Origin: Lignipirellula cremea
Lineage (GTDB): Bacteria > Planctomycetota > Planctomycetia > Pirellulales > Pirellulaceae
Assembly: GCF_007751035.1 (NCBI RefSeq)
Contig: NZ_CP036433.1
Span: forward strand, 6,739,001-6,803,000
Reading direction: 5' to 3'
Length of the DNA: 64,000 nucleotides
Both the position numbers and the translations under genes were made by a program. A model generated the notes under the pieces. It was not told the origin of the DNA. It ran no database searches and was given only the letters and a program-made list of their open reading frames with translations. This document shows, in pieces, positions 38,276-40,779 of the stretch (positions are counted from its first letter, which is position 1; every line of letters begins with the position of its first letter).

Positions 38276-38405
38276 TCGATCTCTCCCAGAAAAACAGTTG
38301 GCCGTTGGAGCATTTCCCTTCCAGCCTGGGATTCTATCGGCTGGCCGGGCGGCATGCCATCGACGGCGCGCATCGGGGCGCATCCTGTTTCCAGAAAATA
38401 ATTTA

Positions 38406-38433
38406 TTGACATCTACGGTTTAACCAGTAGAAT
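38406..38433 (+). promoter_or_regulatory. Promoter with overlapping dyad before blaI-like gene
   Basis: TTGACA (38406-38411), a 16-base spacer, and TAGAAT (38428-38433) form a strong sigma70-like promoter. The spacer and -10 are covered by a dyad: TCTAC (38412-38416) and GTAGA (38427-38431), with GGTT/AACC inside. A dimeric winged-helix repressor sitting here would block polymerase, so it is a likely BlaI-like operator and autoregulatory site. Confidence 0.7.
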
Positions 38434-38530
38434 CACCCTCGTGATGCAGCTTTCCTTTTTTGAGGCGGAAGAGGGAAGTTCCCCCGACGCTGGAATTTGC
38501 CAGAGTGAACCCGCTCATTTTGAGGAACCC

Positions 38531-38929
38531 ATGGCCCGCCCCAAACAGGAACAGCCTACGCCGGGCGAACTCGAAGTACTCAAGGTGCTTTGGGAGATCG
38601 GCCCGGCCACCGTCCGCCAGGTGATGGACAGACTGAACGAACAGACCCATCCGCGTGCTTATACGTCGGTCATGAGCCTGTTAAATGTGATGACCGACAA
38701 GCGCCTCGTCCGCCGCCGCACCAGAGGCAGGGCCTTCGCCTATGAAGCCACGGCCGAGCAAAAACAGACGCTAGGCTGCCTGCTGGGAGACCTGCTGGGC
38801 AGGGCCTTTTCCGGTTCCACCACGGCGCTGGTCACGCAGTTGCTGGACCAGTCCAATCCGACGGCTGCGGAACTGGAAGAGATTCGCCGACTTCTGGATA
38901 ACTACCCCGCACAGGACGACGCCCCATGA
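38531..38929 (+). CDS. BlaI/MecI/CopY-family transcriptional repressor
   Basis: 132 aa from the ATG at 38531 with GAGGA upstream; the ORF opens 30 codons earlier without family similarity. Winged helix: PTPGELEVLKVLWEIGPATV, VRQVMDRLNEQTHPRAYTSV, then LLNVMTDKRLVRRRTRGRAF as the wing. The C-terminal helix pair (LLGDLLGRAFSGSTTALVTQ) dimerises in the family. These repressors are inactivated by the proteolytic signalling of a BlaR1/MecR1-type membrane protease, here encoded next with an ATGA overlap. The signal is unlikely to be a beta-lactam, as no penicillin-binding sensor is present. Confidence 0.92.
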   Translation: MARPKQEQPTPGELEVLKVLWEIGPATVRQVMDRLNEQTHPRAYTSVMSLLNVMTDKRLVRRRTRGRAFAYEATAEQKQTLGCLLGDLLGRAFSGSTTALVTQLLDQSNPTAAELEEIRRLLDNYPAQDDAP

Positions 38930-40779
38930 ACGGTTGGGTGTTCGATACGCTCTGCCAGCGCTGGTCGCTGGCGCTGCTCCACTTTGTCTGGCAAGGGTTC
39001 GCCGTCGCCGCGGTGCTGGCGATCCTGTTGCGGCTGTTCCAGGTGCGCAGCGCCCCGGTGCGTTATGCGGCCGGACTGGCCGCGCTGACGGCAATGGCCT
39101 GCTTGCCGCCGGCGACGTTCCTGCTGTGCGATGCGCCGGCAACGGCGACATCACACGCCATCGTGACAGCGTCAGACACCGTGACAGGTTCTGGCGCCAG
39201 GTCGCTCGGCGGTGTTTCCTGGTCGCCGGGGGAAGTGCTGGCAGCGGCTGCCGGGGAGATCCCGTCCAGCGGGCTGCTGACGCCGTTCTGGCTGGCAGGC
39301 GTGTTGCTGATGTGCATTCGCCTGGCGCTGGGCGCCGGCTACTCCGGCTGGCTGGCGCGGGAACGAAGCGAACCGCCGGAAGAATGGCTGGCGGTCATCG
39401 CCGGCTTGCGACGTTCGCTGCGTCTTTCCGACCGGGTCCGCGTGTATGCCTCGCAGCGCGTGGGGGAAGCGATGGCGGTGGGACTGTGGCGACCGATGGT
39501 GCTGGCTCCGGCTGCGTACTTTTGCGAAACGCCGCCCGACCTGCTGCAGGCGATCCTGGCGCATGAACTGGCCCACATCCGCCGCGGCGACCTGGTCGTG
39601 CTGCTGCTGCAGCGGGTGCTGGAAACCTTACTGTTTTACCATCCGGCCGTGTGGTGGATCTCCCGCCTGGTCCGGGTGGAACGAGAGAAGTGTTGCGACG
39701 AATTGGCGGTCGCGGTGACAGGTCAGCCAGTGAAGTATGTGCGGGCTTTGGAATGGGCGGCCCAGCAACGATTTACTCGTCGTCAACCGACGCTGGCCGC
39801 GAATCTGCGAGGAGAAGGTTCCATGTCGTTATTGAATCGTGCTCGTTATCTGCTAGGCGCCGATGAACATCGGCAATCGCGCTGGTGGCCGCTGGGAATG
39901 CTCATGCTGCTCGCCTTGCCGGCCATGCTCTGGGCCCTGGGATTCGCCAGCAGCAGCCCCGCCTTTGCCGACGGAGAACGCGAAGGCGAAGTCCGTCGCG
40001 ATGGCGATCGTCCGCGAGAAGGCGAAGTCCGTCGCGATGGCGATCGGCCGCGTGAAGGCGAAGTCCGTCGCGATGGCGATCGGCCGCGTGAAGGCGAAGT
40101 CCGTCGCGATGGCGATCGTCCGCGTGAAGGCGAAGTCCGTCGCGATGGCGATCGTCCGCGAGAAGGCGAAGTCCGTCGCGACGGTGATCGGCCGCGTGAA
40201 GGGGAAGTCCGTCGCGATGGCGATCGTCCGCGTGAAGGGGAAGTTCGTCGCGATGGCGACCGGCCGCGAGAAGGCGGATTCCGCCCCGATGGCGATCGTC
40301 CGCGTGAAGGCGGAGTCCGCCCCGATGGCGATCGTCCGCGAGAAGGCGAAGTCCGTCGCGATGGCGATCGGCCGGCAGAAGCTCGAGAGACCTCGGGCTC
40401 GCGGGAAGAGCTCATGATCCGCATGATCAATGAACTGCGACGGGAAGTGATGAACCTGCGCCAGGAAGTGCACGAGCTGCGACATGGCCATGGCGCCCGG
40501 GTGCAACCGCGAGAGGGCGAACCCCGCCGGGAGCTGACTCGGGAACGAACCGTCGAACAACCGCGAGAAGGCGAACCGCGCCGGGAGCTGACTCGGGAAC
40601 GAACCGCCGAACAGCCGCGAGAAGGCGAACCTCGCCGGGAGCTGACTCGGGAACCGTCCGTCGAAAAACCGCGTGAAGTCGAAAAGCCTCGCGAAGTCGA
40701 AAAGCCGCGGGAAGAGCGACGTGAAGTCGAAAGGCCCAAGACCGAAGGCCCGCAGTCGACGGAAACGAAGTCGCGTTAG
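38926..40779 (+). CDS. M56-family (BlaR1-like) membrane metalloprotease with repetitive charged tail
   Basis: 617 aa, start overlapping the repressor stop. The first 350 residues contain about four membrane segments (LLHFVWQGFAVAAVLAILLR; YAAGLAALTAMACLPPATFL; PFWLAGVLLMCIRLALGAGY; WPLGMLMLLALPAMLWALGF). The zinc site HELAH is at residues 213-217 in ILAHELAHIRRGDL, with EREKCCDELAVAV downstream. After the last helix comes 11 copies of a 12-residue unit (REGEVRRDGDRP), a short heptad helix (LRREVMNLRQEVHELRHGHG), then three copies of an 18-residue unit (PREGEPRRELTRERTxEQ) and a Lys/Glu-rich end. No penicillin-binding domain. It probably senses something else and cleaves or triggers cleavage of the repressor. 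Confidence 0.92.
   Translation: MNGWVFDTLCQRWSLALLHFVWQGFAVAAVLAILLRLFQVRSAPVRYAAGLAALTAMACLPPATFLLCDAPATATSHAIVTASDTVTGSGARSLGGVSWSPGEVLAAAAGEIPSSGLLTPFWLAGVLLMCIRLALGAGYSGWLARERSEPPEEWLAVIAGLRRSLRLSDRVRVYASQRVGEAMAVGLWRPMVLAPAAYFCETPPDLLQAILAHELAHIRRGDLVVLLLQRVLETLLFYHPAVWWISRLVRVEREKCCDELAVAVTGQPVKYVRALEWAAQQRFTRRQPTLAANLRGEGSMSLLNRARYLLGADEHRQSRWWPLGMLMLLALPAMLWALGFASSSPAFADGEREGEVRRDGDRPREGEVRRDGDRPREGEVRRDGDRPREGEVRRDGDRPREGEVRRDGDRPREGEVRRDGDRPREGEVRRDGDRPREGEVRRDGDRPREGGFRPDGDRPREGGVRPDGDRPREGEVRRDGDRPAEARETSGSREELMIRMINELRREVMNLRQEVHELRHGHGARVQPREGEPRRELTRERTVEQPREGEPRRELTRERTAEQPREGEPRRELTREPSVEKPREVEKPREVEKPREERREVERPKTEGPQSTETKSR
39979..40374 (+). repeat. 36-bp tandem repeat, 11 units, inside the M56 gene
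   Basis: Eleven 36-base units encode REGEVRRDGDRP. Eight are almost identical (synonymous changes only, such as CGT/CGG and CGA/CGT), two (units 9-10) are diverged to GGFRP and GGVRP, and the last returns to the consensus. The period keeps the frame. Because 36 is divisible by three, other frames are open too. Confidence 0.9.
40507..40668 (+). repeat. 54-bp tandem repeat, 3 units
   Basis: Three 54-base units encode PREGEPRRELTRER followed by TVEQ, TAEQ or a PSVEK variant. They are followed by short PREVEK repeats. It lies in the C-terminal tail of the M56 protease. Confidence 0.85.

Follow-up and report, generated by a model that had tools for sequence, protein, structure and literature searches.

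The window (the whole stretch of 64,000 nt of the Lignipirellula cremea genome analysed here) contains a gene for a BlaI/MecI-family repressor followed by a gene for a BlaR1-type M56 metallopeptidase, with a promoter and a predicted operator upstream (Table 1). The repressor matches PF03965 (Penicillinase_R) with 88.4 bits, against a curated cut-off of 22.6. Its AlphaFold model (mean pLDDT 75, pTM 0.58) is a winged helix with helices at residues 11-23, 28-38 and 44-56, strands at 60-65 and 68-73, and three C-terminal helices. Foldseek ranks 1-13 obtained with this model are all MecI, BlaI or Rv1846c, with MecI, BlaI and their DNA complexes leading (1okr, 1sd4, 1sax, 2d45, 1xsd), and the best sequence match among solved structures is BlaI of Mycobacterium tuberculosis (Rv1846c, PDB 2g9w; 1.6e-5). 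The most likely start of blaI is ATG 38531, with GAGG upstream, because orthologues have a conserved M[AP]RPK there; for the same reason GTG 38441 was set aside as a start. This in-frame GTG coincides approximately with the expected start of transcription, and 30 codons are open from it to the conserved ATG (38441-38530). Its position is likely due to chance, and a leaderless longer form of BlaI may start from it.

Table 1. Predicted features of the blaI-M56 locus (coordinates refer to the window).
Feature	Position	Strand	Remarks
O1 place (most orthologues: TCTACGG-N6-CCGTTGA)	38390..38409	+	degenerate in the window: TCCAGAA..TTATTGA
-35 element TTGACA	38406..38411	+	read from the letters and by consensus scan
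Operator O2 (predicted) TCTACGG-TTTAAC-CAGTAGA	38412..38431	+	spans from the -35 across the -10; kept in orthologues
-10 element TAGAAT	38428..38433	+	overlaps right arm of O2; letters and consensus scan
BlaI/MecI-family repressor gene, 132 aa	38531..38929	+	Pfam PF03965, 5.3e-25; recognition helix about residues 44-56
M56 (BlaR1-type) metallopeptidase gene	38926..40779	+	PF05569, 3.5e-21, 76.1 bits; 4-nt overlap with blaI
HELAH motif of the M56 protein	39562-39576	+	HExxH type

The M56 protein of the window gave only M56/M48 matches in Pfam, and no penicillin-binding or transpeptidase domain was found in it by this search. In place of the BlaR1 sensor, its C-terminal part is encoded by repeats (39982-40374 and 40504-40683) of 36 bp (10.9 copies, 91% matches, no indels) and 54 bp (3.3 copies), which specify Arg/Glu/Asp-rich units of 12 and 18 residues. 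A reading frame with HExxH follows blaI in 64 of 70 orthologues, counting only those with more than 900 nt of downstream sequence (3/73 left out), and Pfam recognised M56 in all eight orthologue partners scanned. C-terminal modules found in these eight were Poly_export (L041), PPIC rotamase (L124, L131) and Secretin (L142), and the remaining four (L038, L117, L118, L125) had no further Pfam match beyond M56. Arg-rich tails, judged by eye, are present in the window protein, in L120, L132, L135 and in others. It looks as if sensors had been swapped behind a constant repressor and operator, and these differing C-terminal parts speak against a beta-lactam sensor in this branch.

The preliminary description of this DNA had placed TTGACA and TAGAAT, separated by 16 bases, ahead of a BlaI-like gene, and direct reading of the letters bears this out. 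A consensus scan of 4.6 kb returned this promoter (11/12 letters) as one of 2 sites, compared with a mean of 0.6 (sd 0.9) in shuffled sequences. A dyad made up of TCTAC/GTAGA and GGTT/AACC had also been described across the spacer and the -10 element. The outer pair is indeed present (TCTAC 38412-38416, GTAGA 38427-38431), while GGTT (38417-38420) and AACC (38422-38425), on either side of T 38421, are one base out of register: the two pairs have no common centre because one additional base, A 38426, separates AACC from GTAGA. The register adopted for O2, TCTACGG-N6-CAGTAGA, was fixed by comparison with orthologues, and its arms are complementary at 6/7 positions, i.e. imperfectly so. The corresponding dyad TCTACKG-N6-CMGTAGA occurs once in the 64-kb window at 0 mismatches; allowing up to 3 mismatches gave 2 matches, against a shuffle mean of 3.5. 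Near-matches are thus no commoner than chance, and only the perfect match is exceptional.

An alignment of 24 orthologues, used as a profile against 397 genomes of the class, gave 61 matches of at least 157 bits, followed by a gap to 143. With orthologues from other searches added, the set used for counting comprises 73 non-identical proteins above 150 bits, window included, in which close relatives are not independent of each other. A further protein, L201 (G051:C620, 165 bits), lies outside all counts on the 73; its promoter has O1 and TGTACGG-N6-CAGTACA, and if counted would add one more miss for CTAC-N10-GTAG and one more symmetric change. Comparison of the regions upstream of homologous blaI-M56 operons, the check suggested in the preliminary description, found the dyad conserved. 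The pattern CTAC-N10-GTAG, a prediction taken from the arms of the window alone, is present in the 200 nt ahead of 43 of the 72 other orthologues, and other spacings from N4 to N18 were each found in 0 or 1 of the 72 promoters. A score for the 20-bp site, designed with the motif already in mind, reached at least 14 in 57/73 orthologues versus 0.2% of 1460 Markov-sampled sequences, none of 73 reversed, uncomplemented promoters, and 1/18 promoters of other BlaI genes. At 13 or more it was reached by 61/73 orthologues but also by 8/18 other BlaI genes, a weaker separation because some of the latter share the frame.

Column identity across 46 promoters was 0.743 for O1 and 0.700 for O2 versus 0.282 and 0.310 in the flanks, the operator values being inflated because these promoters were selected by site score. 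An arm-blind test was run on the 60/73 promoters with at least 9/12 letters of TTGACA/TATAAT, aligned on the hexamers alone. Column identity was then 0.545 for the 7 nt after the -35, 0.644 for the left arm of O1 and 0.629 for the 3 nt before the -10, with flanks at 0.272 and 0.288, and CTAC followed the -35 in 47/60 promoters. Among the 58 orthologues with a pair score of at least 22, the -35 directly ahead of the site reads TTGACA (32) or TTGACG (8) in 40, and the -10 reads TAGAAT in 21 and TAGACT in 10. The arms also co-vary, as in L036 (TCTATGG..CCATAGA, with CCAT in O1 too), L125 (TCTACCA..TGGTAGA), L146 (TCTACTA..TTAGTAGA) and L201 (TGTACGG..CAGTACA). A score of 14 is missed by 16 of the 73 orthologues: the entire genus g43 (eight orthologues, L093-L100), in which L093 and L097 still have CTACGG-N6-CCGTA, though not in the usual layout; L110, L129, L137, L138 and L144, which have weaker sites; and L103, L139 and L140, whose promoters have no recognisable site.

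The site is usually present twice. Pairs with a summed score of at least 24 were found in 56/73 orthologues versus 0/730 Markov samples, with O1 and O2 spaced by 22 bp in 46 cases, 23 in 7 and 24 in 3. The left arm of O1 equals TCTAC at 4/5 letters or better in 53 of these 56, and 44 of the 53 are at exactly 22 bp. The three orthologues lacking this arm are the window, L130 and L146; the upstream operator of the window has therefore been lost or is very weak. The right arm of O1 provides the TTGA of the -35 element, the copy being located 22-24 bp upstream of O2 in 53/73 orthologues, and as CCGTTGA it deviates from CCGTAGA at the very base needed for TTGA. In L136 and L143, an extra copy of the site lies 24-25 bp downstream of the promoter site.

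The genome of the window (one contig, 9.57 Mb, two PF03965 genes) contains TCTACKG-N6-CMGTAGA once at 0 mismatches, at its own operon, with no match at 1 mismatch and 24 further matches at 2 (68 for the reversed control pattern). The genome search through which a regulon was to be found thus returned no second exact or 1-mismatch site, a result that points to autoregulation, with no regulon seen at this depth of search. Six of the 24 two-mismatch sites were inspected as possible regulon members and rejected, none being preceded by TTGAC; L044, L051, L052 and L057 lie inside reading frames of at least 150 aa, L049 outside, and L197 between frames.

In 119 genomes of the family, the bare dyad CTACKG-N6-CMGTAG occurs at 70 sites in 44 genomes (hand count); orthologue promoters account for 11 of these, and the reversed control is far commoner; the dyad without a -35 is not specific. 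Nine further bare sites were read. Those in G096 and G052 lie in promoters of DUF1549 genes and that in G055 in the promoter of another BlaI gene, and those in G106 (two), G042 (two), G034 and G114 were dismissed as background, without TTGAC at the right distance. A protein-independent scan of the 397 genomes for promoter-embedded sites (TTGAC-N1-4-CTACNG-N6-CNGTAG) gave 46 sites, versus about 106 (hand count) for the reversed control, and the argument therefore rests on their location, not their number. Thirty-eight have K/M arms (TTGAC-N1-4-CTACKG-N6-CMGTAG), and the genes behind them are orthologues (22 sites), other members of the BlaI family (13 sites; 100-120 bits with the A1 orthologue-alignment model, two checked by Pfam) and DUF1549 genes (3 sites). 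The eight sites with other arm bases comprise four CTACCG palindromes, before three TetR genes (L190, L191, L192) and one HTH_3 gene (L156), and four others; such palindromes behind TTGAC, e.g. CTACCGTACGGTCGGTAG, CTACCGATCGATCGGTAG and CTACCGCATATGCGGTAG, look like operators of those unrelated regulators. The DUF1549 sites, in G096, G052 and G408, are BlaI-type sites within sigma-70-like promoters of PSCyt2/PSD1 (DUF1549/DUF1553) genes (L193:295-2313, L194:291-2312, L186:115-831), which are candidate distant targets of planctomycete BlaI repressors. The DUF1549/DUF1553 gene of G096, with a further reading frame (466 codons) behind it, is separated from blaI by megabases.

We consider it highly likely (probability about 0.9) that the dyad serves as operator for the BlaI-family repressor encoded next to it, which would repress its own blaI-M56 operon there. 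Autoregulation at the dyad, as proposed in the preliminary description, is supported by the site being retained, in most orthologues, at the corresponding place in the promoter; because it is kept before the same gene in dozens of relatives, this gene is very probably silenced there by its own product. The scheme that we infer for binding, repression, and the role and cue of the M56 protein is the following. A BlaI dimer would bind TCTACGG-N6-CAGTAGA, covering the spacer and the -10 hexamer, and block RNA polymerase at the blaI-M56 promoter, such that the operon represses itself; the M56 peptidase, activated by an extracytoplasmic cue (not evidently a beta-lactam), would then cleave or otherwise remove BlaI, leading to derepression. 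In most relatives, the -35 and the -10 would each be covered by a dimer, the tandem pair being offset as a rule by 22 bp (two helical turns), and the -10 site alone would be left in the window. The location of the site over spacer and -10, the predicted fold and the M56-like frame behind most orthologues fit autorepression with M56 release.

It might be argued that the dyad is an accident of overlapping sigma-70 elements (TTGACA, GTAGAAT) without a specific binding partner, given that half of its right arm is the -10 element, that the right arm of O1 is bent to the TTGA of the -35, and that the bare dyad without a -35 is common elsewhere. However, the left arm, which follows the -35, is not part of any promoter element and yet is conserved in the arm-blind alignment (0.545 versus 0.27-0.29 in the flanks; CTAC in 47/60), O1 has a left arm of its own outside the -35 (0.644), and the arms co-vary in L036, L125 and L201, so that an accident appears highly improbable. 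The same holds, if a shade less strictly, for a genuine site bound by some other dimeric regulator, for which the three sites ahead of DUF1549 genes and the second BlaI gene in the genome of the window could be invoked: 35/38 promoter-embedded K/M sites precede a BlaI-family gene, the second BlaI gene has a different dyad (GACTA-N6-TAGTC), and a variant helix tends to go with variant arms, though the association extends to residues outside the helix. Least probable of all is a role of BlaI as activator or roadblock instead of simple repressor. The extra downstream copies in L136 and L143, 24-25 bp from the promoter site, would suit such a role, but a position over spacer and -10 is typical of occlusion, and the available text characterises CopY and the BlaI proteins of Clostridium thermocellum, which have two sites per promoter, as repressors (PMC7253601, PMC8457756).

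With staphylococcal BlaI/MecI, the system predicted here shares protein family and fold, a BlaR1-type M56 gene in one operon, an operator inside the promoter and, by prediction, autoregulation. It differs in the operator, which has TAC-N10-GTA and lacks TACA, and in the M56 protein, which unlike BlaR1 has no penicillin-binding domain according to Pfam. The staphylococcal operator, as given in the available text, is TACA-N2-TGTA (PMC5341023, PMC7253601), with the consensus [A/G]NATTACA[A/T]NTGTA[A/G][T/G]NT and TAC four bases from GTA (PMC5341023). A search of the 64-kb window for TACA-N2-TGTA with up to 1 mismatch gave 6 matches, all with 1 mismatch and none near the promoter (nearest 35358), and the staphylococcal-type TACANNTGTA was found in 0/72 orthologue promoters. 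The site had been put forward as a new type; it does differ from the staphylococcal one, but its novelty is reduced by BlaI operators without TACA already published for C. thermocellum (PMC8457756). There, as far as the available text goes, BlaI_0696 and BlaI_1845 control autoregulated operons with blaR1 and have very few genomic sites (DAP-seq, EMSA), with two inverted-repeat pairs per promoter (four protomers) according to the authors' sequence analysis; EMSA used single repeats, and the shift with BlaI_0696 was modest (PMC8457756). Autoregulated blaR1 operons, few sites, tandem layout and arms without TACA are thus common to both systems, by prediction on the planctomycete side and with the tandem layout in most relatives of the window, whereas C. 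thermocellum belongs to another phylum and a beta-lactam response is suggested there (PMC8457756). The arms of BlaI_0696 are given as GTCTAT five nt apart, those described here being TCTAC(G/T)G six apart.

To our knowledge, CopY/CopR has no M56 partner. It is a BlaI-related repressor with two operators, of which the first is suggested to act by blocking the -35 and the other by occluding RNA polymerase, and differs in its RNYKACANNTGTMRNY operator, in copper sensing by CxC motifs and in that the authors saw no cooperativity, according to the available text (PMC7253601). The available parts of PMC4301838, PMC9480834 and PMC4757040 gave no operator letters for Rv1846c, and no planctomycete BlaI operator was found among the literature matches listed. 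A tandem layout of BlaI operators is already known from C. thermocellum; the sequence and spacing described here were not met among the listed matches, in the text available.

Clues on how the arms are read come from variation among the orthologues. Proteins with the variant helix RAYTSI[LQ].M tend to have the variant arms TCTAC[TC]A, and residue 50 (L versus others) is associated with arm base 7 (Fisher p 7.8e-8, 63/73 proteins), in a test that counts the degenerate O1 of the window among the arms. Residue 103 is associated with this base more strongly than residue 50, and residues 11, 12 and 69 are associated too; such associations outside the helix point to clade structure, and a recognition-helix code is therefore only suggested. 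It is tempting to speculate, at what we regard as even odds, that planctomycete BlaI operators follow a common code: a fixed TAC-N10-GTA frame within a sigma-70 promoter, present twice at a distance of about 22 bp, with arms that also serve as -35 and -10 and inner arm bases that depend on the recognition helix of the respective paralogue clade, together with M56 sensors that exchanged the penicillin-binding domain for a variety of extracytoplasmic modules and, in some genera, additional control of PSCyt2/PSD1 (DUF1549/DUF1553) genes.

Relatives of the window BlaI are numerous, with at least one match at E <= 0.001 in 79/119 family genomes and up to 24 per genome, and a defined operator would allow targets to be assigned to each BlaI paralogue by sequence. 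For this branch, the operator points away from beta-lactam resistance. The paired repressors and sites constitute a test set for DNA reading by the BlaI recognition helix, and regulated expression in planctomycetes is a possible use of promoters that already contain an operator.

The promoter region of the second BlaI gene in the genome of the window (L001:1404-1449) contains the dyad GACTA-N6-TAGTC and, 30 bp on, a second one, GACTA-N6-TAGGC; with different dyads, the two repressors may act without cross-talk. In another BlaI group (L021, L027, L028, L031; helix GYTT[TV]LKL[ML]QIM), the same tandem layout is found with arms TACGAA-N4-TTCGTA (one mismatch in L027), in which the TAC-N10-GTA frame is shared and the inner bases differ.
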